From Mumia flava (lineage in GTDB: Bacteria > Actinomycetota > Actinomycetes > Propionibacteriales > Nocardioidaceae), in assembly GCF_002797495.1 (NCBI RefSeq), contig NZ_PGEZ01000002.1, positions 496,001 through 560,000 of the forward strand: a DNA stretch of 64,000 bases. Direction: 5' to 3'. The notes under the pieces were generated by a model that did not search any database, was not told the DNA's origin, and saw nothing but the letters and a program-made list of their open reading frames with translations. A program made the position numbers and the translations under genes. Within the stretch, counting starts at the first letter, position 1, and every line of letters begins with the position of its first letter. Below, one piece after another: positions 11,511 to 25,121 of the stretch.

Positions 11511-14273
11511 GTGGCCCAGTCATCGGAGCGGCCCCCCGTCATCCACGAGGGTCTCCCCTCGCAGCTGCCCGACATCGATCCCGACGAGACGACCGAGTGG
11601 CTCGAGTCGTTCGACGAGATGGTCGGCAGCCGGGGCCGAGGCCGCGCCCGGTACGTGATGCTGCGACTGCTCGAGCGGGCCCGCGAGCGCCAGGTCGGCG
11701 TCCCCGCGCTGACGAGCACCGACTACATCAACTCCATCCCGCCCGAGCGCGAGCCGTGGTTCCCCGGGGACGAGGACGTCGAGCGTCGCATCCGCGCCTA
11801 CATCCGCTGGAACGCCGCCGTGATGGTCTCGCGCGCGAACCGCCCCGGTCTCGGGGTCGGCGGGCACATCGCGACGTACCAGTCGGCCGCCAGCCTGTAC
11901 GAGGTCGGCTTCAACCACTTCTTCCGGGGCAAGGACGCCGACGACGGCGGCGACCAGATCTACATCCAGGGGCACGCGTCGCCGGGCATCTACGCTCGCG
12001 CGTTCCTCGAGGGCCGCCTGGAGGAGGACCAGCTCGACCGGTTCCGCCAGGAGGTCTCGCACGGCCCCGGGCAGGGCCTGTCGTCCTACCCGCACCCGCG
12101 CCTGATGCCGGACTTCTGGGAGTTCCCCACGGTCTCGATGGGCATCGGGGCCCTGAACTCCATCTACCAGGCCCGGTTCAACCGCTACCTGCACAACCGC
12201 GGCATCAAGGACACGAGCAACCAGCACGTCTGGGCCTTCCTCGGCGACGGCGAGATGGGCGAGCCCGAGTCGCTCGGCGCGATCGGCCTCGCCGCCCGCG
12301 AGGAGCTCGACAACCTCACGTTCGTGATCAACTGCAACCTCCAGCAGCTCGACGGGCCGGTCCGCGGCAACGGCAAGGTCATCCAGGAGCTGGAGTCGTA
12401 CTTCCGCGGCGCCGGCTGGAACGTCATCAAGGTGATCTGGGGCCGCGAGTGGGACGACCTGCTCGCCCGCGACGTCGACGGCGTCCTGGTCAACCAGATG
12501 AACCGCACGCCGGACGGCCAGTTCCAGACGTACTCGATCGAGGAGGGCTCCTACACCCGGCAGCACTTCTTCGGTGCGGACCCGCGGCTGCTCAAGATGG
12601 TCGACCACCTCAGCGACGACCAGATCGCGCGCCTGCCGCGCGGCGGCCACGACTACCGCAAGGTGTACGGCGCGTTCAAGGCCGCGACCGAGCACACCGG
12701 GCAGCCGACGGTGATCCTCGCCCAGACCATCAAGGGCTGGACGATCGACGCGCTGGAGGGCCGCAACGCGACCCACCAGATGAAGAAGCTGACGAAGAAC
12801 GACCTCAAGGTCTTCCGCGACCGGCTGCACCTGCCGATCAGCGACGCCGCGATCGACGACAACGACCTGCCGCCGTTCTACCACCCGGGCGCGGACTCCG
12901 ACGAGATCCAGTACATGAAGGAGCGGCGCCGCCAGCTCGGCGGGTCGATCCCCCGCCGGCGGGTCGCGCCGACCTCGGTCGAGCTGCCCGGTGACAAGGC
13001 GTACGAGGAGCTGCGCGGCGGCTCGGGCAACCAGCCGATCGCGACGACGATGGCGTTCGTCCGCCTGCTGCGCAACCTGATGCGCGACAAGTCGATCGGC
13101 AAGCGGGTCGTGCCGATCGCGCCGGACGAGTTCCGCACGTTCGGGATGGACTCGATGTTCCCGACGGCGAAGGTCTACAACCCGCACGGCCAGTCCTACG
13201 AGTCGGTGGACCGCAAGATCCTGCTGGCCTACAAGGAGTCGGACTCCGGCCAGCTCCTGCACGAAGGCATCAGCGAGGCCGGGGCGGTCGCGTCGATGAC
13301 CGCCGCCGGCACCGCGTACGCCACGCACGGCGAGCCGATGATCCCGGTCTACATCTTCTACTCGATGTTCGGCTTCCAGCGCACCGGCGACTGGCTGTGG
13401 GCGCTCGGCGACCAGCTCGGGCGCGGGTTCCTCGTCGGTGCCACCGCCGGGCGCACGACCCTGACCGGCGAGGGGCTGCAGCACGCCGACGGCCACTCGC
13501 CGCTGCTCGCACGGACGAACCCGGCGGCGGTGCACTACGACCCCGCGTACGGCTTCGAGATCAGCCACATCGTCGCCGACGGCATGCGGCGGATGTACGG
13601 CTCGACCGAGGAGCACCCGCACGGCGAGGACGTCTTCTACTACCTGACGGTCTACAACGAGCCGATCGTGCAGCCGGCCGAGCCCGAGGGTCTCGACGTG
13701 GACGGTCTCCTGAAGGGGATGTACCGCTACCGCGCGGCCGGCGAGGCGGCCGCCGACGCGCCCCGCGCTCAGGTGCTCGCCTCCGGTGTCGCGATGCCGT
13801 GGGCGGTCGAGGCGCAGCAGATCCTCGCCGACGAGTACGGCGTGGCGGTCGACGTGTGGTCCGTCACGTCGTGGAACGAGCTGGCGCGCGAGGCCGACGA
13901 GGTCGCGCGCGAGAACCTCAACGCGCCGGGGAGCGAGCCGAGGGTGCCGTACGTCACCCGGACCCTGTCGGACCAGCCGGGCCCGGTCGTCGCGGTCAGC
14001 GACTACATGCGTGCGGTGCCGGACCAGATCGCCCGCTGGGTGCCGGGGCACTGGATGTCGCTGGGCGCCGACGGCTACGGCTTCGCGGACACGCGCGCAG
14101 CCGCACGGCGGTTCTTCCAGATCGACACCGCGTCGATCGTGGTCGGGGTCCTCGAGTCGCTGGCCGCGACCGGCGAGGTGAAGCCCGAGACCGCCGCGGA
14201 GGCGTACCAGCGCTTCGAGCTCGACGACCCCCAGGCGGTGGCGGACGTGCCGCAGGAGGGCGCGGACGCCTGA
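11511..14273 (+). CDS. aceE: Pyruvate dehydrogenase E1 component, homodimeric type
   Basis: 920 aa, the usual length. The thiamine-diphosphate motif is [20 protein letters not shown] followed by [14 protein letters not shown]; the pyrimidine-binding and transketolase-like central domains are intact ([18 protein letters not shown]). It decarboxylates pyruvate and acetylates the lipoyl group of E2, feeding acetyl-CoA to the TCA cycle and lipid synthesis. GTG start preceded by AGAAGG. The upstream 270 bp is a divergent promoter region shared with DUF3052. E2 and E3 are not in the window. Confidence 0.97.
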
Positions 14274-14345: not shown

Positions 14346-15530
14346 ATGGGTTCTGGCGACGACACGACGTCCGCCCCGAGCGTCGGCACGTCCGTGGCCA
14401 CGCCGGAGGCTGACGCGAGCAAGGAGGCAGCGGCGATGACGCCGACGTGGGTCCGTGTGGTGCGCTGGCCGTACACGTTCCTCGTGGCCTTCTCCGTGCT
14501 CGTCGGGATCTTCACGATCTCGACCTCGGCGTCGCTGGACCTCCCGCTGCGGGACCCGGAGGGCTTCCTCGGTCCGGCGTACGTCCGGCTGCCGATGCTC
14601 GGCGTGCTCTTCATCGCCGGCGGCGTCCTCGTCCAGGCTCTGGTCCAGAACCGCAGCGTCCGCGGGCTGTTCTCGCGGGCCGTGACGATCGTGCGGACCG
14701 AGTGGACCTGGGGGCGTCTGGCGCACGCCGCGACCGGGCTGATCTGCTTCTACGTCTGCTACGTCTGCTACCGCAACCTCAAGAGCTTCCTCCCGGTGAT
14801 CCGCGAGGACGTCCTCTACGACGCGGACCTGCTCAAGCTCGACCACTGGCTGTTCTTCGGGCACTACCCGGGCCTGCTGCTGCACGACCTCCTCGGCACC
14901 GGCGCCTCGGGCTTCGTGCTCTCGACGGTCTACACGTCGTACCTCATGCTCGTCCCGGTCTCGCTCGCCGCGGTCCTGGTCCTGAACCGCAACCTCTCCC
15001 TCGGGGCTTGGTACGCGACGGCGCTGAGCCTGAACTGGATCCTCGGCGTCGCCAGCTACTACCTCCTGCCGACCCTCGGGCCGGTCTTCGCCAACCCCTC
15101 GCTGTTCTACGACCTGCCGGCCGACTCCGGCGTCGCGAGCCTCCAGGAGTACCTCGCGGACAACGGGTACGAGGTCAGGCACGACCCGTGGTCCAGCGAC
15201 GCGATCTACGGGATCGCCGGCTTCGCGTCGCTGCACGTGTCGGTCGTGCTCACGGCGTGCCTGTTCTTCCGCCGGATCGGCCTCAACCGCTGGCTGATGA
15301 ACGTGCTGTGGGTCTACTTCGCCTGCACGGTGCTCGCGACGATCTACTTCGGCTGGCACTACGTCGTCGACGATCTCGGCGGTGCGGCGATCGCCTGGGC
15401 GTCGGTCGCGATCGGCGCGCTGGTCACGGGCAACCGCGGCTACCGTCGCCGCCGCGGACAGCTCGGGCGCGGCGACGCCGAGGTCGGCGCGACCACCGAC
15501 GACGCGACCACCGACGACGCGACGACCTGA
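14346..15530 (+). CDS. PAP2 family membrane phosphatase / AUR1-like transferase
   Basis: 394 aa integral membrane protein with about six helices. Catalytic motifs of the PAP2 superfamily are visible: LKLDHWLF (C1 region), GFASLHVSV (C2, His) and YFGWHYVVDDLGG (C3, His and Asp). The AUR1-like subgroup transfers or hydrolyses phospholipid headgroups on the extracytoplasmic face. The N-terminal 30 residues are polar, and an in-frame ATG at 14436 closer to the first helix is an alternative start, but the -10 hexamer supports 14346. The C-terminus ends in a short TTDDA tandem repeat. Confidence 0.87.
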   Translation: MGSGDDTTSAPSVGTSVATPEADASKEAAAMTPTWVRVVRWPYTFLVAFSVLVGIFTISTSASLDLPLRDPEGFLGPAYVRLPMLGVLFIAGGVLVQALVQNRSVRGLFSRAVTIVRTEWTWGRLAHAATGLICFYVCYVCYRNLKSFLPVIREDVLYDADLLKLDHWLFFGHYPGLLLHDLLGTGASGFVLSTVYTSYLMLVPVSLAAVLVLNRNLSLGAWYATALSLNWILGVASYYLLPTLGPVFANPSLFYDLPADSGVASLQEYLADNGYEVRHDPWSSDAIYGIAGFASLHVSVVLTACLFFRRIGLNRWLMNVLWVYFACTVLATIYFGWHYVVDDLGGAAIAWASVAIGALVTGNRGYRRRRGQLGRGDAEVGATTDDATTDDATT

Positions 15531-15575: not shown

Positions 15576-16541
15576 TCAGCCCGCCTGGGGCGCGGCGTCC
15601 TCGGCCTCGTCCTCGTCCTCGACGACGGCACCGTGGGCCTGCAGCGCCGAGCGCCACATCTTCTTGCGGTAGCGCACGGCCGGCTGCTGGTCGACGAACG
15701 AGCTGAGCACCTCCACGAACAGCTCGGGCTCGTCCTTGTGCGGGAAGTGGCCGGAGCGCGGGAAGATCTCGACCCGCGTGGGCCCGGCCTCGCGTCGGGC
15801 GAGCGTGGCGTGCCGCGCCGGGATCACGTCGTCGCACGCGCCCCACACGAGGCACAGCGGGACCGACTCCGCGAGGTAGGCGCGGTCGTGCATGGTGACC
15901 CGCTGTCCCCGCCAGTCGATCACGTGGCTCGTCACGGCACGGATCGCCGCCCGCGCCGCCGGGTCGCACAGCTGCGCGTAGACGTCGGCGACCTCGTCGA
16001 GGTCGCGGGTGTGCGGGATCCCGGTGCGCGACAGTCCGCGCAGCAGCCGCCGCAGCGGCGCCCGTACGGGCGGGACCGACAGCAGCCCGAGGCCCACGCC
16101 GGCGCCCGGCAGGGTGAGGGCCCGGATCAGCGGCGACACCTCCGGTCCGAGGCCGCCGGGTGCGACCAGGCACAACCGTTCGGTCTGCTTGGGGAACTGG
16201 TAGGCGAACTGCATCGCCACCCCTCCGCCCAGGCTGTGCCCGACGACGGTCGCGCGGTCGAGGTCGAGGCACGCGAGCAGATCACGCATCCCGTTCGCGT
16301 ACCCACCGAGCGAGTAGTCCGCGCGGGGCTTGTCGGACGCGCCGTGACCGAGGAAGTCCGGCGCGAGCACGGTGTAGCGCTCGGCGAGCCGGCCCATCAC
16401 CGGGAGCCAGGTCGAGGAGTCGCACCCGAGGCCGTGCAGCAGCAGGAGCACCGGACCGTCGCCCGCGAGACGGTACGCGCGCCGGTGGCCGTGGACGGTG
16501 ACCCAGCGCGTCTCGAGGGCAGGGTCGGTCGCGCGCTCCAT
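15576..16541 (-). CDS. Alpha/beta hydrolase
   Basis: 321 aa. Nucleophile elbow VGHSLGGGVAMQ, oxyanion segment LLLHGLGCDSSTW, catalytic acid region near WGACDDVIPA and His in RSGHFPHKDEP complete the triad. The fold resembles haloperoxidase / epoxide-hydrolase-like esterases; the substrate is unknown. ATG 16541 is chosen because GAGGAGGG lies 6 nt upstream; longer in-frame starts lack this. The C-terminal ~30 residues are acidic low complexity. Divergent from the FasR-like regulator. Confidence 0.88.
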   Translation of the reverse strand: MERATDPALETRWVTVHGHRRAYRLAGDGPVLLLLHGLGCDSSTWLPVMGRLAERYTVLAPDFLGHGASDKPRADYSLGGYANGMRDLLACLDLDRATVVGHSLGGGVAMQFAYQFPKQTERLCLVAPGGLGPEVSPLIRALTLPGAGVGLGLLSVPPVRAPLRRLLRGLSRTGIPHTRDLDEVADVYAQLCDPAARAAIRAVTSHVIDWRGQRVTMHDRAYLAESVPLCLVWGACDDVIPARHATLARREAGPTRVEIFPRSGHFPHKDEPELFVEVLSSFVDQQPAVRYRKKMWRSALQAHGAVVEDEDEAEDAAPQAG

Positions 16542-16611
16542 GGCGGCCCTCCTCATCCCCCCGGACGAGTCCTCAGGCGTCACGATACCGGTCGGCGAGC
16601 CTCGCGCACCC

Positions 16612-16617
16612 TAGTCT
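16612..16617 (+). promoter_or_regulatory. Putative -10 (TAGTCT) for leaderless fasR-like gene
   Basis: TAGTCT ends 6 nt before the GTG start at 16624. Confidence 0.5.
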
Positions 16618-16623
16618 GGGCAC

Positions 16624-17847
16624 GTGACCCAGACCGCACGAGCACGCTACGCGGCCGTCCTGGACCGCTCTCTGGGCGACCTCACGACCGCGGCGATCGC
16701 GCGGATGGACTCCGAGCTCGACTGGTTCTCCGAGCTCGACGCCGAGCAGCGCTCGTGGATCTCGATGATCGCGCACGCGGGCATCGCCCAGTGCTCGCAG
16801 TGGCTGCGCTCCCCCGGGCGCCCGCTGGACGTCTCCGAGCAGGTCTTCGGGGCCGCGCCGCGCACGCTGACCCGCGACGTCAGCCTGCAGCGGACCGTGG
16901 CGATGGTGCGGACGACGATCGAGGTGATCGAGAGCCGGATCGTCGACCTGTTCGGTCCGGAGGAGGCGGACGAGGCGGCTCGCGCGATGTCGGAGTACGC
17001 GCGGGAGGTCGCGTTCGCCACGGCCGAGGTCTACGCACGCGCGGCGGAGGCGCGCGGAGCGTGGGACGCCAGGCTGGAGGCGCTCGCCGTGGACGCGGTC
17101 GTCCGCGGTGAGACCGAGGACCTGGTCCGCTCCCGGGTCGCGGTGCTCGGGTGGGACGCGGGCGGTCCGGTGGTCGTGGTGGTGGGCGCGGCCCCGCAGG
17201 CTCCCGGGGTCGACGACGAGACGGTCGTCGAGCAGGTGCGGTCGTGCGCCGGGCGCTCCGGGCTGACCGCACTCACCTCCGTCCAGCTCGACCGCCTCGT
17301 CGTGCTGCTGGCCGGCGCCGACGAGCCGCGTGCCGCAGCGCTCGCGGTGGCGTCGGCCTTCGGCGACGGTCCGGTCGTGGTGGGTCCGCCGGTCGGCTCG
17401 GTCGCGCAGGCGCACCGGTCGTCGCGCGCCGCGGTGGCGGGGTACCGCGCGGCGGGCGGCTGGCCGGACGCTCCCCGGCCGGTGCTCGCCGACGAGCTGC
17501 TCGTCGAGCGGGCCCTGGCCGGCGACGGGCATGCCCGTCGCGAGCTCGTCGGTCAGGTGTACGAGCGGCTCCGTGCCGACGACCCCGTCGTGCTCGGCAC
17601 CCTCGCTGCCTATCTGGAGGCCGGCTCGTCGGTCGAGGCCGCGGCCCGGCGCCAGTTCGTGCACCCCAACACGGTGCGCTACCGTCTGCGGAAGGTCCGC
17701 GAGACCACCCACTGGGATCCTCTGTCGGCTCGCGGCGCCTACACGCTGCGCGTCGCTCTGACGCTGGGGGGCCTCCTCGCGGCGGGCAACGGGACGGGAA
17801 ACCCTCCGAACTTGGAGGATTCCTCCAAACGAACGCCGCGAAGTTGA
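16624..17847 (+). CDS. fasR: PucR/CdaR-type transcriptional regulator, FasR-like
   Basis: 407 aa. The N-terminal ~150 residues form an all-helical domain seen in actinobacterial FasR-type proteins; residues ~165-290 are a degenerate CdaR/GGDEF-like domain; residues ~325-380 hold the PucR C-terminal helix-turn-helix (AARRQFVHPNTVRYRLRKV). In Streptomyces the FasR gene lies immediately before fabD-fabH-acpP-fabF and activates them; in M. tuberculosis the related Rv2242 lies between aceE and fabD. Here the same gene follows aceE, but the fab genes are absent. The symbol is assigned by position and architecture, so moderately sure. A dyad overlaps its last codons. Confidence 0.8.
   Translation: MTQTARARYAAVLDRSLGDLTTAAIARMDSELDWFSELDAEQRSWISMIAHAGIAQCSQWLRSPGRPLDVSEQVFGAAPRTLTRDVSLQRTVAMVRTTIEVIESRIVDLFGPEEADEAARAMSEYAREVAFATAEVYARAAEARGAWDARLEALAVDAVVRGETEDLVRSRVAVLGWDAGGPVVVVVGAAPQAPGVDDETVVEQVRSCAGRSGLTALTSVQLDRLVVLLAGADEPRAAALAVASAFGDGPVVVGPPVGSVAQAHRSSRAAVAGYRAAGGWPDAPRPVLADELLVERALAGDGHARRELVGQVYERLRADDPVVLGTLAAYLEAGSSVEAAARRQFVHPNTVRYRLRKVRETTHWDPLSARGAYTLRVALTLGGLLAAGNGTGNPPNLEDSSKRTPRS
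17812..17828. promoter_or_regulatory. Perfect 8-1-8 inverted repeat, candidate operator
   Basis: TTGGAGGATTCCTCCAA is a perfect palindrome around one central base, inside the last codons of the FasR-like gene. The one-base centre makes it unsuitable as an RNA hairpin, so a protein-binding dyad is likelier. It sits where a fabD promoter would lie in related genomes. Binding by the FasR-like protein is inference. Confidence 0.45.
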
Positions 17848-18159
17848 GTGGCGCCGCCTTCGTCTGCCGCGATCACCCCAGGCACTCTTGAGACGTGCTC
17901 GTCGATGGTGACGACACCACCGGAGATTCCGTCCTACGCGGTTCGGGGGACTCGGCGGTTGCGGCACCACCGGAGCGTGGCGGCCGCAAGCGCGGTCGAA
18001 CGGGGGTGGTCATCGCCGAGAGGCGGTGGCGAGTCACGCTGAGCACACGGTCCCGCCCGGGCGTTCGGGGGTCGCCCGTGGCGGGACCGGCGGCCGTGGT
18101 CCGGGGTTGATCCGGACCACGGCCGCATCCTTCCCTCTCGTGCTCCAGGAGAAGCCGCC
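17848..18159. other. 312-bp intergenic region with structured DNA
   Basis: No gene with normal codon bias is visible. A 71-codon frame at 17895-18110 has poor third-position GC and its stop lies inside a hairpin loop, so it is not called. The region holds two back-to-back long hairpins (18048-18126) and the Shine-Dalgarno sequence of the ACP-like gene (AGGAG). In related genomes this interval would carry fabD and fabH. Confidence 0.6.
18048..18126 (+). other. Tandem double hairpin upstream of the ACP-like gene
   Basis: Hairpin 1: 18048-18057 pairs with 18080-18089 and 18058-18063 with 18073-18078 (16 bp, one bulged T). Hairpin 2 abuts it: 18090-18104 pairs perfectly with 18112-18126 (15 bp, 7-nt loop). 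Could be the terminator of the regulator gene, an attenuator, or a palindromic repeat. No U-tract follows. Confidence 0.5.
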
Positions 18160-18435
18160 GTGTCGCGTCAGGATGCGCTGCGCAGTGCCCTCGTCGATCT
18201 CGTCGCCCCGCTGGTCGCCATGCCGGACGGCGCTCTCGAGTCGGACCCGTCGATCTCCGACCCGTCGTTCGCCGACCCGTCGTTCGCCGACCTGGGCCTC
18301 GACGAGGTAGCGCTGGACCAGCTCGTCCTCGGGATCGAGGACCGTTTCGGGATCACGGTCTCAGCCGGTGACATCGGTCTGCTCAGCACGCTCGGCGACA
18401 CCGCCGCGTACCTCGAGGGCCGCCTCCACGGCTGA
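18160..18435 (+). CDS. Acyl carrier protein-like protein lacking the phosphopantetheine serine
   Basis: 91 aa, ACP length. The C-terminal half aligns with the ACP helix II region: FADLGLDEVALDQLVLGIEDRFGI corresponds to the usual F-x-DLG-x-DSL-D-x-VEL pattern, but the Ser of DSL is Glu. No 4'-phosphopantetheine can be attached there. Just before it, a 15-bp unit is repeated three times (18244-18288), encoding DPSIS-DPSFA-DPSFA and lengthening loop 1. GTG start with AGGAG upstream. It occupies the acpP position between a FasR-like gene and DUF3145. Likely a relic or a protein with a non-carrier role. Confidence 0.8.
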   Translation: MSRQDALRSALVDLVAPLVAMPDGALESDPSISDPSFADPSFADLGLDEVALDQLVLGIEDRFGITVSAGDIGLLSTLGDTAAYLEGRLHG

Positions 18436-18510
18436 GGTCCTCGTCACTCGACGTGAACCGTCACCGTGCGTTTGTCATGATGGATCGCGTCCGCAGACCG
18501 AGGAGGACGG

Positions 18511-19071
18511 ATGGACCTGAGCCGCGACACGGTGACCGGTGAGCGCAACCGGTTCGCCCTCAAGGTCGTGCTCGGTCTGGTGATCGCCGGCGCGACGATC
18601 GGCCTGGCGACGGGCTTCCTCGGGGCGTCGGCGATCCGCGCCCTCGGCTTCTCCGCCGACGACGACCCCGCACCGGTCCAGCCCGCCGCGACCGACGACG
18701 CCGACGAGCCCTCCGACGAGCCCTCGCCGACGGACGAGCCCACCGCCGAGCCGACCACCGAGCCGACCACCGAGCCGGAGCCGGACGGCCAGAAGCCCAG
18801 GACCAGGTTCCAGGTCGAGCAGGACGCGGTCAGCGCGGGCGAGCGGATCGACCTGAGCGGCCGCGCCCCGAAGCTCGGTGCGGGCGAGACGCTCCAGATC
18901 CAGCGGCGCGAGGCGGCCTCCGGCTCGTGGTCGGACTTCCCGGTCACGGTGGAGACGCGCAAGGGCGGCCGGTTCTCGACGTGGATCGTGACGGGCCGCA
19001 CCGGCACGTGGGAGTTCCGGGCCGCATCCGGGGACTTCAGCACGCCGACCGCGACGGTCACGATCAACTGA
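18511..19071 (+). CDS. Predicted membrane-anchored protein with Pro/Thr/Glu linker and Ig-like C-terminus
   Basis: 186 aa. Residues 1-17 are basic/cytoplasmic, ~18-45 form one hydrophobic helix, ~50-95 are a low-complexity Asp/Glu/Pro/Thr linker with EPTTEPTTEPEP repeats, and ~97-186 are beta-rich, resembling a small extracellular Ig-like/bacterial adhesion fold (ETLQIQRREAASGSW, GTWEFRAASGDF). GAGGAGG precedes the ATG. No named family recognised. Probably an extracytoplasmic wall-spanning protein. It lies between the ACP-like gene and DUF3145, where fabF would be expected. Confidence 0.75.
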   Translation: MDLSRDTVTGERNRFALKVVLGLVIAGATIGLATGFLGASAIRALGFSADDDPAPVQPAATDDADEPSDEPSPTDEPTAEPTTEPTTEPEPDGQKPRTRFQVEQDAVSAGERIDLSGRAPKLGAGETLQIQRREAASGSWSDFPVTVETRKGGRFSTWIVTGRTGTWEFRAASGDFSTPTATVTIN

Positions 19072-19106
19072 CCCACCGACCGGCGACCGCCGTACGCCGG
19101 CAGGGC

Positions 19107-19607
19107 TCAGCCGACCTGGTTCAGCCAGCGGACCGGCGCGCCCTCGCCCGCGTGCCGGAACACCTCGAGCTCGTCGTCCCACCGTCGTCCCAGGAGCGCG
19201 TCGATCTCCTCGGCGAGCGAGCCCTCCCCGGCCGCTGCTCGTGCCGTCGCCGCTCGGAGCCGGTCCTCGTGCACGACGACGTCACCGTGCTGGCCGACGG
19301 CCGCGTGGAAGATCCCGAGCGAGGGAGTGTAGGAGTAGCGCGCGCCCTCGGTGGTCGCGGTGGGCTCCTCGGTGATCTCGAACCGGACCCGCTCCCACCC
19401 GCGCATCCGCGAGGCGCACGCGGCGGCCGAGCCGACCTCGTGACGCCACGTGACCTCGGCGCGGTAGGTACCGGGCTCGGCGGGCTGGGGACGCCAGGGC
19501 AGCGGAGTGGGCACGCCGAGGGCGTCGACGACCGCCCACTCGACGTGCGGGCAGAGCGCCGACGGCGCGGAGTGGACGTACAGGACGCCACGCGCAGCGT
19601 TGCTCAT
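19107..19607 (-). CDS. DUF3145 domain-containing protein
   Basis: 166 aa. Starts MSNAARGVLYVHSAPSALCPHVEW, the conserved opening of DUF3145, and ends with the conserved ELEVFRHAGEGAPVRWL. The family is actinobacterial, of unknown function, and in Streptomyces lies just beyond fabF in the fab locus. The ATG at 19607 follows GAGGAGG. Its presence here helps mark the boundary of the missing fab genes. Confidence 0.9.
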   Translation of the reverse strand: MSNAARGVLYVHSAPSALCPHVEWAVVDALGVPTPLPWRPQPAEPGTYRAEVTWRHEVGSAAACASRMRGWERVRFEITEEPTATTEGARYSYTPSLGIFHAAVGQHGDVVVHEDRLRAATARAAAGEGSLAEEIDALLGRRWDDELEVFRHAGEGAPVRWLNQVG

Positions 19608-19727
19608 CAGTGCCTCCTCGTTCGAGATGCGCCTTCCCCAACGACCTCGTACGACGGGCACTGCCACGGCCATTGTGCCGCATCCCGGCGCTTCGCACCA
19701 TGACCGGGCGCGTGACACGATGGAGGC

Positions 19728-20006
19728 GTGAACGAATCGGTGCAGCAGGATCCGCGGACCGGCAGCTTCGAGATCCTGGTCGACGGCGAGACCGCCGGCC
19801 GGATGGAGGTGGTCACGGACGACGGGCGGGCGACGATCCCGCACGTGTGGGTCGAGCCTCGGTTCGAGGGCCGCGGGATCGGGACGCGCCTGGTCGTCGC
19901 GGGAGCCGAGCGCCTCCACGCCGACGGTCTCGCGATCCGTCCGGTCTGCTCGTTCGCGGCGCGGGTGCTGCGTGCACGTCCCGACCTGACGGAGGTGAGT
20001 CGATGA
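19728..20006 (+). CDS. Small GNAT-fold N-acetyltransferase-like protein (YjdJ/NATD1 type)
   Basis: 92 aa. The acetyl-CoA loop is VEPRFEGRGIGTRLVVAGAERLHADGL and the short beta-strand N-terminus matches the single-domain YjdJ/NATD1 group. Substrate unknown. GTG start with GGAGG immediately upstream. The stop overlaps the ATG of the next gene by 4 nt (ATGA), so the two form an operon. Confidence 0.85.
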   Translation: MNESVQQDPRTGSFEILVDGETAGRMEVVTDDGRATIPHVWVEPRFEGRGIGTRLVVAGAERLHADGLAIRPVCSFAARVLRARPDLTEVSR

Positions 20007-20650
20007 AGATCGCGATCGCCGGCGGCCACGGCCAGATCGCCCTGCTGCTGACCCGTGCCCTGGCTGAGTCCGGGCACCAGGTGCGCAGCCTGATCCGCAA
20101 TCCCGAGCACGCCGACGAGGTTCGTACGGCCGGGGCCGAGCCTGTCGTGACGGACCTCGAGGACACCACGGCGACCCGGCTCAGCGAGGTGCTCGCGGGG
20201 TGCGACGCGGTGGTGTTCGCGGCAGGCGCCGGACCGGGTTCCGGGATCGAGCGGAAGTGGACGGTCGACCGTGACGGCGCGGTCCTGCTCGCGGCCGGAG
20301 CCCAGCTCGCCGGCGCGTTCCGCTACGTCCTGGTCTCGTCGATGGGAGCCGGCTCCCCCACGCCGGAGATGGACGAGATCTTCCAGGTCTACCTGCAGGC
20401 GAAGGGCGAGGCCGAGGACGCCGTGCGCGACAGCGCGCTCGACTGGACGATCGTGCGTCCCGGCATGCTCACCGACGATCCGCCGACCGGCGGCGTGCGG
20501 GTCGGCGAGAGCGTCGGTCGCGGCCCGATCCCCCGCGCGGACGTGGCTGCCGTGCTCGCGGCGACCCTGGAGCACGACGGTACGGTCGGCCGCACCTTCG
20601 AGCTGATCAGTGGGGAGACGCCGATCCCGGAGGCGCTGGACGCGCTGTGA
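20003..20650 (+). CDS. NAD(P)H-binding atypical SDR (YwnB/NmrA-like)
   Basis: 215 aa. Glycine-rich loop IAGGHGQIALLLTRAL at the N-terminus and VVFAAGAGPGSG and DWTIVRPGMLTDDPPTG typical of the NAD(P)H-binding PF13460 group. The catalytic Tyr/Lys pair is not obvious, as usual in this group, where members may act as sensors or isomerase/reductases. Translationally coupled to the GNAT gene. Confidence 0.87.
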   Translation: MKIAIAGGHGQIALLLTRALAESGHQVRSLIRNPEHADEVRTAGAEPVVTDLEDTTATRLSEVLAGCDAVVFAAGAGPGSGIERKWTVDRDGAVLLAAGAQLAGAFRYVLVSSMGAGSPTPEMDEIFQVYLQAKGEAEDAVRDSALDWTIVRPGMLTDDPPTGGVRVGESVGRGPIPRADVAAVLAATLEHDGTVGRTFELISGETPIPEALDAL

Positions 20651-21134: not shown

Positions 21135-22187
21135 ATGACTCCCCGGTTCGCCCGACGTACCCGACTCGCCGCCCTCACGCTCGCGGCGACGCTCCCGCTC
21201 GCTGCGTGCGGCGGCTCCGACGACTCCGCCGACGACGCCGAGTCCGGCGACGGCGGCAGCAGCTTTCCGGTCACGATCACCAGCTCGCTCGGCGAGACCA
21301 CGATCGAGGCCGAGCCGCAGAGCCCGGCCGCGGTGGGTTGGGGCAGCCAGGACGTCGCGCTCGCGCTCGGGGTGGTCCCGGTCGGCATGCCGTCGTTCGC
21401 CTACGGCGACGACGACGGCGACGGGATCCTCCCCTGGACCTACGACGCCCTCGAGGACGCCGGTGCCACGGGCGACGACACCCCCGCGCTGTACGACGAG
21501 ACGGACGGTGTGGACTTCGAGGCCGTCGCGGACGCGGCGCCCGACGTGGTCCTCGCGACGTACTCCGGCATCTCCGCGGAGGACTTCACGACCCTCTCGG
21601 AGATCGCTCCGACGGTCGGCTACCCCGATGCGCCGTGGGGCACCAAGTGGCGCGATCTCGTGACGATCAACGGCGAGGCGCTCGGCCTGGCCGACGAGGC
21701 CGAGGAGCTCGTCGCCGACCTGGAGGACGAGATGTCCTCCGGCTTCGACGAGTACCCCCAGCTCGACGGCAAGACGTTCGCGTTCACCTACGTCAACCCC
21801 GCCGACACCAGCACGGTCCCCGTCTACACCCCGCTCGACGCCCGCGTCTCGTACGTCTCCGACCTCGGTCTGGAGGTTCCGCAGAGCGTCAGCGACCTCG
21901 ACAACGGCGAGGACTTCTACGCCGAGGTCAGCGCGGAGAACGCCGACACGATCGACGCCGACATCATGATCACGTACGGCGACGACTCGACGCTCCAGAT
22001 GCTCCAGGACGATCCGCTGCTGTCGAAGATCCCGGCTGTCGCCTCGGGCGCGGTCGTCGTGCTCGAGGACGGCTCGCCGCTCGCCGGCGCGGTCTCGCCG
22101 CCGACGCCGCTGTCCATCGAGTGGGCGCTCGACGACTACCTGGAGCTGCTCGGCGACGCCGCCGACGCCGCCGACGCCGCGTCGTGA
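21135..22187 (+). CDS. Iron-siderophore ABC transporter substrate-binding lipoprotein
   Basis: 350 aa. Lipoprotein signal peptide with lipobox LPLAAC (Cys25), an Asp/Ser-rich tether to residue ~45, then a FepB/FecB-type periplasmic-binding fold (VTITSSLGETTIEAEPQ; PDVVLATYSGISAEDF). It captures a ferric siderophore outside the membrane and delivers it to the FecCD permeases encoded next. Its stop overlaps the GTG of the first permease (GTGA). Siderophore identity cannot be inferred. Confidence 0.93.
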   Translation: MTPRFARRTRLAALTLAATLPLAACGGSDDSADDAESGDGGSSFPVTITSSLGETTIEAEPQSPAAVGWGSQDVALALGVVPVGMPSFAYGDDDGDGILPWTYDALEDAGATGDDTPALYDETDGVDFEAVADAAPDVVLATYSGISAEDFTTLSEIAPTVGYPDAPWGTKWRDLVTINGEALGLADEAEELVADLEDEMSSGFDEYPQLDGKTFAFTYVNPADTSTVPVYTPLDARVSYVSDLGLEVPQSVSDLDNGEDFYAEVSAENADTIDADIMITYGDDSTLQMLQDDPLLSKIPAVASGAVVVLEDGSPLAGAVSPPTPLSIEWALDDYLELLGDAADAADAAS

Positions 22188-23239
22188 CCCTCCCGTCCGC
22201 GCCGACCGCTCCCGCGCAGGCCCGCAAGGCCCGTGCGGGAGCGGTGACGGCCCGGCGCCGGGTGGTCGGCCTGGTGGTCTGCCTGGTCGTCCTCCTGGTC
22301 GCCGTGGTCGCGTCGGTCGCGGTCGGGTCACGGGCGGTCTCGCTGCCCGACATCGTGGCGGGCGTCTTCTCGCCCGACCCGGACGACATCGCCCAGGTGG
22401 CGGTGCACCAGCGACTCCCTCGAACGCTCCTCGGGCTCCTGGTCGGCGCTGCGCTCGGGCTCGCGGGCGGCGTGATGCAGGGTCTGACCCGCAACCCCCT
22501 CGCCGACCCCGGTCTCCTCGGGGTGAACGCCGGCGCTTCCTTCTTCGTCGTGCTCGCGCTGTCGTTCCTGGGTGTGGGCAGCCTGTCGTCGGCCGTGTGG
22601 TTCGCCTTCGTCGGCGCGGCCGTGACGTCGGCCGGGGTGTGGGCCGTGGGCTCGCTGGGGCGGGCCGGCGCCACGCCCCTCAAGCTCGCCCTCGCGGGGG
22701 CGGCGACTGCTGCCGCCTTCACGTCGCTCACCACGCTGGTGCTCCTCAGCCAGCGCGAGGTGCTCGAGGTGTTCCGGTTCTGGCAGGTCGGCAGCGTGGG
22801 CGGCGCGTCGTTCTCGGAGATCCTCACGGTCCTGCCGTTCCTCGCCGTCGGCGCGTTCCTCGCGGTCGCTCTGGCCGGCGGCTTGACGAACCTCGCGCTC
22901 GGCGACGACGTCGCGACGGCACTCGGTCAGCGCACCGGACTCACCCGGGTGGCCGGAGGGGTGGCGGTGGTGCTGCTGTGCGGGACGGCCGTCGCCGTGG
23001 CCGGGCCGATCGGGTTCGTCGGGTTGACGATGCCCCATCTGGCCCGGCTCTTCACCGGTCCCGACTACCGCTGGATCCTTCCGTACGCCGCGGCGCTGGG
23101 AGCCGCGCTCCTCGTGCTCGCCGACGTCCTCGGCCGCGTGGTCGCCGACGGAGAGATCGAGGTCGGCGTGATGACGGCGCTGCTCGGCGCCCCGTTCTTC
23201 GTCGCCGTGGTCCGCCGCACCAGGCTGCGTGAGCTGTGA
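22184..23239 (+). CDS. FecCD-family siderophore ABC permease 1
   Basis: 351 aa, about nine or ten transmembrane helices. Conserved RLPRTLLGLLVGAALGLAGG, TRNPLADPGLLGVNAGA and PIGFVGLTMPHLAR are signatures of the BtuC/FecCD family. GTG start inside the stop of the binding-protein gene. It forms the heterodimeric channel with permease 2. Confidence 0.94.
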   Translation: MTLPSAPTAPAQARKARAGAVTARRRVVGLVVCLVVLLVAVVASVAVGSRAVSLPDIVAGVFSPDPDDIAQVAVHQRLPRTLLGLLVGAALGLAGGVMQGLTRNPLADPGLLGVNAGASFFVVLALSFLGVGSLSSAVWFAFVGAAVTSAGVWAVGSLGRAGATPLKLALAGAATAAAFTSLTTLVLLSQREVLEVFRFWQVGSVGGASFSEILTVLPFLAVGAFLAVALAGGLTNLALGDDVATALGQRTGLTRVAGGVAVVLLCGTAVAVAGPIGFVGLTMPHLARLFTGPDYRWILPYAAALGAALLVLADVLGRVVADGEIEVGVMTALLGAPFFVAVVRRTRLREL

Positions 23240-24291
23240 CCGCGACGGCCTCGACGCTCCGTACGGACCTCGCCTCGCGGATCTCCGCCGGCCGGCGAGG
23301 GCGGCGACGGCGCTGGTTCGCGGTGTGTGGCGTGCTCGCCGTGGTCGTGCTCGCGCTGGCGCTCCTCGGGCTGGTCTACGGGCGGACCGTGTATCCGCTG
23401 TCGGACGTGTTCGCGGTGCTCACCGGCCAGGAGGTCCCGGGTGCCTCGTTCACGGTCGGTCGGCTTCGGCTCCCCCGGGTGCTGACCGGTCTGCTGGTCG
23501 GCTTCGGCTTCGGGACGGCGGGCGTGATCTTCCAGACGATGCTCCGCAACGTCCTCGCCAGCCCCGACATCCTCGGGATCAGCACGGGCGCGAGCGCGGC
23601 CGCGGTCGTCGCCATCACGTTCTTCGGTCTGCGCGGAGGCGCGGTCTCGCTGATCGCGCTGCTCGGCGCCCTCGGCGTCGCGCTCGCGATCTACGGGCTG
23701 TCGTGGCGCGGTGGGGTCGCCGGTGCCCGGCTGGTGCTCGTGGGGATCGGGATCGGCGCGATGATGCAGAGCATCGTCGCGTACAGCCTGACCCAGGCGC
23801 AGATCACCGAGGCCGCCGAGGCGCTGCGGTGGCTGACCGGCAGCCTCAACGGCGCGTTCGCCGACGGCCTGCCGGTGCTCGCCGCCGCGATGGCGGTCCT
23901 GGTCCCGGCGGCGTACCTGCTCGACCGTCGGCTCACCATCCTTCAGCTCGGCGACGACACCGCCAACGCGCTGGGCGTCGACGCCGACCGGACCCGTCTG
24001 TGGCTGCTGCTCGTCGCGGTCACCCTGGTCGCGGTCGGCACCGCGGCCGCCGGCCCGATCGCGTTCGTGGCGTTCCTCTCCGGCCCGATCGCGGCCCGTC
24101 TGATGCGAGGCTCGGGCTCGTTGCTGCTCCCGGCCGGCCTGGTCGGGGCCGTCGTGGTGCTGGCCAGCGACTTCGCCGGCCAGTACCTGTTCGACCTGCG
24201 CTTCCCGGTCGGCGTCGTCACCGGCGCGGTCGGCGCCCCGTACCTGCTCTGGCTGCTCGCCAGGTCCAACCGCACCGGAGGCACCCTGTGA
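23236..24291 (+). CDS. FecCD-family siderophore ABC permease 2
   Basis: 351 aa multi-helix BtuC-type permease with RLPRVLTGLLVGFGFGTAG, LASPDILGISTGAS and GPIAFVAFLSGPIAARL. GTG start overlaps the stop of permease 1, and its own stop overlaps the GTG of the ATPase gene. It is the second half of the transmembrane channel. Confidence 0.94.
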   Translation: MTATASTLRTDLASRISAGRRGRRRRWFAVCGVLAVVVLALALLGLVYGRTVYPLSDVFAVLTGQEVPGASFTVGRLRLPRVLTGLLVGFGFGTAGVIFQTMLRNVLASPDILGISTGASAAAVVAITFFGLRGGAVSLIALLGALGVALAIYGLSWRGGVAGARLVLVGIGIGAMMQSIVAYSLTQAQITEAAEALRWLTGSLNGAFADGLPVLAAAMAVLVPAAYLLDRRLTILQLGDDTANALGVDADRTRLWLLLVAVTLVAVGTAAAGPIAFVAFLSGPIAARLMRGSGSLLLPAGLVGAVVVLASDFAGQYLFDLRFPVGVVTGAVGAPYLLWLLARSNRTGGTL

Positions 24292-25121
24292 CCGCGGACC
24301 ACCACACGCTGCGGGTCGAGGACGTCACGCTCGGCTACGACGAGCGGATCGTCGTCGACGGGCTGACCCTCGACGTCCCGTCGGGCGCGGTCACGATCGT
24401 CGTCGGCGCGAACGCCTGCGGCAAGTCGACGCTGCTGCGCGCCATGGCCCGTCTGCTCAAGCCGCGCTCCGGCTCGGTCCTGCTCGACGGCCGCGACATC
24501 GCCGAGCGTCACACCCGCGAGGTGGCGCGGATGCTCGGTCTGCTCCCGCAGACGCCCATCGCGCCCGAGGGGATCATCGTCGCCGACCTCGTCGGTCGCG
24601 GACGCCACCCGCACCAGAGCCTGCTGCGCCGGTGGAGCCGCACCGACGACGAGGCCGTCGCCGAGGCGCTCGAGGCGACCGCGACCACGGACCTGGCGGA
24701 GCGGCCCGTGGACGAGCTGTCCGGCGGTCAGCGCCAGCGGGTGTGGATCGCGATGGCGCTCGCGCAGCAGACCGACCTGCTCCTGCTGGACGAGCCGACC
24801 ACGTTCCTCGACGTCACCCACCAGGTCGAGGTGCTCGACCTGCTCACCGACCTCAACCACGACCGCGGGACCACGATCGTGATCGTGCTGCACGACCTCA
24901 ATCTCGCGGCCCGCTACGCCGATCACCTGGTCGCGCTCAAGGCCGGGCGCATCCACGCCCAGGGCGCTCCGGGCGACGTCGTCGACGAGGTGATGGTGCG
25001 CGAGGTGTTCGGGATGGAGTCGCGCGTGGTCAGCGACGAGGTCTCGGGGACTCCCCTCGTCCTCCCGGTCGGACGCCACCACACCCGTACGTCGGCCACC
25101 GAGCTGCCCGACGCGGGCTGA
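24288..25121 (+). CDS. Siderophore ABC transporter ATP-binding protein
   Basis: 277 aa FecE-type ATPase. Walker A GANACGKST, Q-loop LPQTPI, signature LSGGQRQRVWIAMAL, Walker B LLLLDEPTTFLD, switch His in VLHDLNLAARY. It powers ferric-siderophore import through the two upstream permeases. GTG start overlaps the permease stop. Last gene of the IdeR-box operon. Confidence 0.95.
   Translation: MTADHHTLRVEDVTLGYDERIVVDGLTLDVPSGAVTIVVGANACGKSTLLRAMARLLKPRSGSVLLDGRDIAERHTREVARMLGLLPQTPIAPEGIIVADLVGRGRHPHQSLLRRWSRTDDEAVAEALEATATTDLAERPVDELSGGQRQRVWIAMALAQQTDLLLLDEPTTFLDVTHQVEVLDLLTDLNHDRGTTIVIVLHDLNLAARYADHLVALKAGRIHAQGAPGDVVDEVMVREVFGMESRVVSDEVSGTPLVLPVGRHHTRTSATELPDAG

Follow-up and report, generated by a model that had tools for sequence, protein, structure and literature searches.

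A fatty acid synthesis locus in Mumia flava that almost certainly lost its type II enzymes while keeping their regulator, operator and promoter

What becomes of a dedicated regulator and its promoter when the operon behind them has disappeared? The question is raised by positions 16624-19607 of a 64,000-nucleotide stretch of the Mumia flava genome (G000:C2:496001-560000, hereafter the window; the genome, G000, measures 4.40 Mb and is 99.75% complete). There, open reading frames and Pfam matches agree with an earlier sequence-only reading in placing a regulator of the MabR/FasR type, a protein of acyl carrier protein (ACP) length, a membrane protein and a DUF3145 protein in that order. The window's genus comprises six genomes, G000 and G001-G005, and from their comparison with one another and with wider sets of relatives we hypothesize that the locus is a scar left when a type I fatty acid synthase (FAS I) took the place of type II fatty acid synthesis (FAS II), a change in which the regulator, its operator and the fabD promoter were retained and the promoter came to produce a structured RNA. 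Judged from sequence, we consider this chain probable as far as the RNA being the kept promoter's product.

That genes have been lost here is read from the order kept elsewhere. Fifteen loci were fetched out of the 100 genomes of other genera in the family with a regulator match, and at 14 of them the regulator is followed by fabD, fabH, acp and fabF, the 15th being cut by its contig after fabH; the same order holds at 66 of 67 named actinobacterial loci, and the 67th is likewise cut. Because other genera hold these genes between the same flanks, the arrangement in the window represents loss. The PAP2 and membrane protein genes also occur at three of the 15 loci (L093, L094 and L096, genera g9 and g6). 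One of these, L096, carries the alpha/beta hydrolase as well and runs aceE-PAP2-alpha/beta hydrolase-regulator-fabD-fabH-acp-fabF-membrane protein-DUF3145; it therefore shows the whole ancestral set. In the window, aceE (pyruvate dehydrogenase E1, 11511..14273, + strand; TIGR00759, 1349 bits), a left flank shared with relatives, and the DUF3145 gene on the right (19107..19607, - strand; PF11343, 225.9 bits) are still in place, and when Fab proteins are used as tblastn queries, no fabD, fabH or fabF turns up in the interval between them.

Searches of G000 for acyltransferase, ACP, FabF and the FabH C-terminal domain found no fab cluster elsewhere. The acyltransferase family PF00698 matches only FAS I and one frame resembling a polyketide synthase (PKS), and the sole FabH C-domain match is a thiolase. 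A search with the FabF model returns three matches, and the two listed, the PKS-like frame at 137 bits and FAS I at 131 bits, compare with at least 450 bits for FabF proper in the family, a value taken as the threshold. PF00550 has 13 matches, namely the ACP-like protein of this locus and 12 in frames of 662-1851 codons, which we infer to be PKS-like or nonribosomal peptide synthetase-like; these 12 sit at G000:C2 ~794-833 kb and G000:C1 ~2743-2753 kb. In the other five genomes of the genus PF00550 gives no match beyond the ACP of the locus itself.

FAS I of G000 is encoded away from the fab locus as a single frame of 3,097 codons, with matches to AT, helical (PF08354), dehydratase, malonyl transferase and ketosynthase domains and no Pfam match for its internal ACP and ketoreductase domains; by eye, the frame immediately downstream resembles acpS at five genus loci, and the remaining one of the six is cut. 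Across 159 genomes of the family, 56 have FAS I (PF08354), 96 have FabF (at least 450 bits), none has both and seven have neither. Four of the seven are less than 80% complete (G022, G054, G060 and G121), G031 has the regulator on a contig of 3.3 kb, and in G123 the frame of a FAS I-like ketosynthase is broken. Genome G084 (genus g7), rated 100% complete, has no match to FAS I, the regulator or DUF3145 and none above 168 bits to the FabF model; the region may be missing from its assembly. At the level of the genome, these searches indicate that FAS II has almost certainly been replaced by FAS I. The sequence-only reading had proposed as much: aceE and both flanks kept, three enzymes missing, the type II system lost and perhaps a type I synthase elsewhere in its stead. 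It is borne out in all of this, and the two outcomes it had named as contrary, a complete fab cluster elsewhere in the genome and relatives that never had fab genes between these flanks, are not what we find.

Within the family the regulator is present in all 96 genomes with FabF and absent from 50 of the 56 with FAS I (two of the 50 have 46-bit matches, which were set aside), and the six FAS I genomes that keep it are precisely those of the window's genus, the sole such lineage sampled. DUF3145 occurs whatever the FAS type (153 of 159 genomes). On a tree of aceE, with 41 rows from the 45 loci given (the remainder being without a long aceE), FAS I needs three changes, two of them forced, in part of g5 (nested among FAS II genera), in g1, and in g20 with g15. 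The FAS I tree falls into three groups, g1+g20+g15, g5+g21, and f5, and is unrooted, so that it cannot count acquisitions. In a class-wide sample FAS I was present in 25 of 246 genomes, all within this family or one other, f5.

What the regulator would act on is the next question, and the operator bears on it. In an excerpt of PMC5541348 the recognition sequence of MabR is given as TTTTGT(N)9ACAAAA, and S. coelicolor FasR is said to bind highly similar repeats ~67 bp upstream of the start. Relatives of the window carry between regulator and fabD a palindrome like TTGTAGG-N3-CCTACAA, which agrees with the MabR sequence, and the strict form of this pattern stands at the regulator-fabD junction of 9/15 family loci and 30/67 named loci. 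The window has it at 17812..17828 (no strand assigned), overlapping the last codons of the regulator, as TTGGAGGATTCCTCCAA; both arms are altered relative to the relatives and still match each other, and the change abolishes the TAG that serves G001-G004 as stop codon of the regulator. The operator is symmetric in all six genomes of the genus, and each holds exactly one perfect match, always at the old fabD site. Allowing up to one mismatch gives 3-9 sites per genus genome, about as few as the 4-11 of the reversed pattern. Downstream lies a relict fabD promoter (17829..17897, + strand) that ends in a vestigial GTG start at 17895, and the first fabD codons survive as GTGCTCGTC in the window and GTGCTCGTG in G003. 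From operator centre to GTG there are 75 nt in the window and 75-77 nt in all six genomes, as compared with 75-78 nt to the fabD start in 10 of 11 relatives and 68 in one (12 were given, of which 11 yielded a fabD start). The palindromic operator in a fabD promoter that marks the MabR/FasR type is thus present.

The possibility that the same operator had been taken up ahead of FAS I was rejected: no strict site occurs in the FAS I loci, and in the genus genomes none of the sites with zero or one mismatch lies within them. The FAS I promoters of the six genus genomes (L016, L154-L158) share a conserved inverted repeat of their own, AACATGAGG...CCTCATGTT, unlike the MabR-type operator and perhaps bound by a different regulator. 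Of the 20 loci fetched from other FAS I lineages none has the strict operator, a relaxed pattern not having been tried there.

The regulator itself (16624..17847, + strand; PF17853 and PF13556) belongs to the PucR family and has the GGDEF-like domain, PucR-type helix-turn-helix and MabR N-terminal domain of the MabR/FasR type. Among solved structures, both halves of MabR/Rv2242 come closest to it (9f80, E 5e-56; 9fb1, E 1e-16). It departs from the type in having no fabD-containing operon to control, as there is no fabD in the genome. Its ratio of nonsynonymous to synonymous substitution (Ka/Ks, by Nei-Gojobori, for seven chosen pairs per gene where the gene is present) is 0.06 for G002/G003, 0.15 for G001/G005, 0.18 for the G004 pairs and 0.34-0.35 for pairs with the window; at a window-pair Ks of ~0.8 these last ratios are rough. 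Since the flanking genes give 0.20-0.58 for the window pairs, the window regulator is constrained, though not exceptionally so.

Where fabD and fabH should follow, the genus has a segment of somewhat more than 200 nt in which hairpin-like blocks are conserved (17895..18126, + strand, ends approximate), a candidate small RNA or leader defined by alignment and a covariance model. The model finds one copy in each of the six genomes of the genus and none in the 153 others of the family. Invariant columns number 61 among the 129 without gaps. Their longest run spans 20 columns, of which 19 are contiguous, and none of 20,000 column shuffles matched it, under a null that takes no account of phylogeny. 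A conserved hairpin at 18052..18085 (+ strand), with the invariant core GGGCGTTCGGGGGTCGCCC, pairs in 92.4% of cells and has two compensatory pairs, its covariation being weak. By sequence and fold, the segment closes in the window with a 15-bp perfect GC hairpin that is terminator-like (18090..18126, + strand). Two other identities were tried and rejected. An Rfam search of window positions 16000-20500 gave two matches, at E 8.3 and 8.5, far below the cut-offs for a known RNA family. A short gene does not fit either: in G002 and G003 translation from the old GTG would end after 10 codons, and in the other members of the genus the conserved blocks lie in different frames.

The ACP-like protein (18160..18435, + strand; 91 residues; PF00550, 28 bits) matches other ACPs over its second half, and has GLDEV where the aligned ACPs have DSL, so that Glu stands in place of the phosphopantetheine serine that a functional ACP carries. 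The corresponding residues in the genus are DSL in G004, Ala in G002 and Gly in G003, and no ACP was found in G001 and G005. PF00550 finds no match in G001, G003 and G005, an absence that is bounded because the profile is equally blind to the ACP domain expected within FAS I. Ka/Ks of the ACP is 0.39-0.53 among the relatives and 0.70-0.95 between the window and the three genus copies. The window branches outside the other five members, G004 outside G001 with G005, and G002 with G003 (support of 81/33 in the aceE tree and 100 in the FAS I tree); this order implies at least three inactivations within the genus (Glu, Ala/Gly, and deletion). In G002 (L085) a ~24-bp unit that includes the last part of the ACP gene occurs about five times over, and the end hairpin holds long G and C runs, from instability or assembly error. 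The inactivated ACP of the sequence-only reading thus holds for the window, G002 and G003, and does not extend to G004, whose copy is intact, or to G001 and G005, which have none. That reading had also given the regulator "new or other targets", for which the sequence offers no support because the only perfect operator in each genome is still that of fabD; and it did not include the operator at 17812-17828, the vestigial start at 17895 or the conserved non-coding segment up to 18126.

We propose the following course of events. FAS I took over and the fab locus was stripped, with leftovers differing by lineage. In the window's genus fabD past its first codons, fabH and fabF were lost, while the regulator, operator, promoter spacing and fabD start codon stayed. 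The regulator may still sense the fatty acid state of the cell and switch the kept promoter, whose product would be a structured RNA of ~200 nt ending at the GC hairpin; for MabR, long-chain acyl-CoAs have been proposed as the signal, in the excerpted part of PMC5541348. The ACP would have lost its carrier role and decayed independently in different species. The most speculative step has the RNA adjusting the expression of lipid or envelope genes in trans. The fuller proposal, in which an operon regulator was rewired to a new, acyl-CoA-responsive small RNA and the orphaned ACP either decays, leaving some members with no free ACP, or, in related genera, turns into a membrane-tethered carrier through fusion to an ectodomain protein, we hold only tentatively.

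Several observations weigh against the proposed scar with its RNA. The covariance model was built from the same six sequences, and its wide search ran under strict filters. Every measure of the hairpin's covariation was reached by 41 of 500 shuffles, the end hairpin is without a U run, and outside the blocks the segment's identity between the window and the others (0.61-0.65) is little above that of synonymous sites (pS 0.34-0.54). The operator pattern was written from these same sites, and variant sites elsewhere would therefore be missed. The Ka/Ks of the window's regulator resembles that of its flanks and is not lower.

The plainest rival is passive debris, in which regulator, operator and promoter are leftovers that have yet to decay. 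It would suit the 20 loci of other FAS I lineages, which have neither the regulator nor the strict operator in this place, and the decay of the adjoining ACP; yet the regulator is kept in six of six genomes at Ka/Ks 0.06-0.35, the operator has stayed symmetric through a change in both arms in the window, and the invariant run lies downstream of the promoter, all of which make debris a rather improbable account. Still less should the type II system be thought to have moved within the genome, a reading with next to no probability given that the G000 searches described above found no set of its genes.

Two further alternatives touch single steps of the scar hypothesis. The segment might be a cis-acting leader of the transcript for the ACP and membrane protein, not a free small RNA, which is compatible with the remaining steps. 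In every genome that has both genes it lies directly upstream of them in the same orientation; against this, G001 and G005 retain it although they have lost the ACP gene, and the membrane protein gene has a conserved block of its own, TTTGTCATGATGGA, ahead of it in all six genomes. We regard the leader as unlikely, if deserving of some weight. The serine-less ACP, for its part, could have gained a new non-acyl role, for example as a scaffold, instead of decaying: its frame remains open in three of three serine-less genomes, and Ka/Ks is 0.53 for G002 vs G003. The high ratios of the window pairs, the missing ACPs of G001 and G005, a short internal repeat in the window copy (DPSFADPSFAD) and the failure of the G003 copy to match PF00550 speak for decay, however, and a new role seems improbable.

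The ACP has fared differently in other FAS I lineages. In those fetched, it has DSx or was not found, and DSL is kept at 7/7 g5 loci and the 1/1 g21 locus. A survey of 44 loci (42 of g20, one of g15 and one of g21) found the ACP fused in frame to the membrane protein at 28 (L134, L137, L139, L147-L150, L153 and 20 further g20 loci) and encoded separately at three; at 11 the membrane protein is present but no ACP was detected (G156 among them, on a 3.7 kb contig), and two have no ectodomain match (G137, and G025 with a separate ACP). DSx is kept in all 31 ACPs scored. An AlphaFold model of one fusion (mean pLDDT 73, pTM 0.38, the two end domains at ~80-96) comprises an ACP fold (1-77), a helix (105-134) and a seven-stranded sandwich (185-272); among solved structures it is closest to ACPs and matches various beta-sandwich proteins more weakly. 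The fusion, with its single-pass membrane protein, is a predicted membrane-tethered carrier in FAS I bacteria. The unfused counterpart in the window (18511..19071, + strand), recognized from homologues, has a single predicted membrane segment, a PT-rich linker and a C-terminal domain that, going by the fused homologue's model, is probably a beta sandwich.

Between aceE and the regulator lie the PAP2-type membrane protein (14346..15530, + strand; PF14378), a flank common to genera g9, g6, g20 and g15, and the alpha/beta hydrolase (15576..16583, - strand; PF12697), a flank also compared among relatives. Further along the window, translations of 21135-25121 resemble by eye an iron-siderophore transporter, with a substrate-binding lipoprotein, two permease-like frames and an ABC ATPase.

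Within this one family a pathway replacement is caught part-way, with intact clusters, enzyme-less clusters, ACPs with or without the serine, and no ACP at all. A free ACP is generally considered essential in bacteria; G001 and G005 yielded none, and the sole copies in G002 and G003 lack the serine. The module of regulator, operator and segment offers a testable prediction on how a regulator outlives its operon, and the fusions of ACP to membrane protein point to use of holo-ACP outside type II synthesis. Title listings turned up no literature on this locus, which does not show that nothing has been published.

Set beside known systems, the locus is familiar in its parts. Like MabR (Rv2242) and Streptomyces FasR, the regulator has both family domains, a palindrome with a 9-nt spacer and a place between aceE and the fabD start; unlike in the fasII operon of those regulators, the genes behind the operator are gone, and FAS I lies elsewhere behind a different inverted repeat. 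The window's ACP relict resembles free-standing ACPs (AcpP, AcpM) in its place in the cluster, its length and the sequence of its second half, and differs from them in its replaced serine, while those of g20 and g15 differ in being fused to the membrane protein. The single-chain FAS I followed by an acpS-like frame (five of six genus loci) recalls the mycobacterial fas-acpS operon. Mycobacteria, however, retain FAS II besides FAS I, as stated in the excerpt of PMC5541348, whereas the genus of the window has FAS I only.

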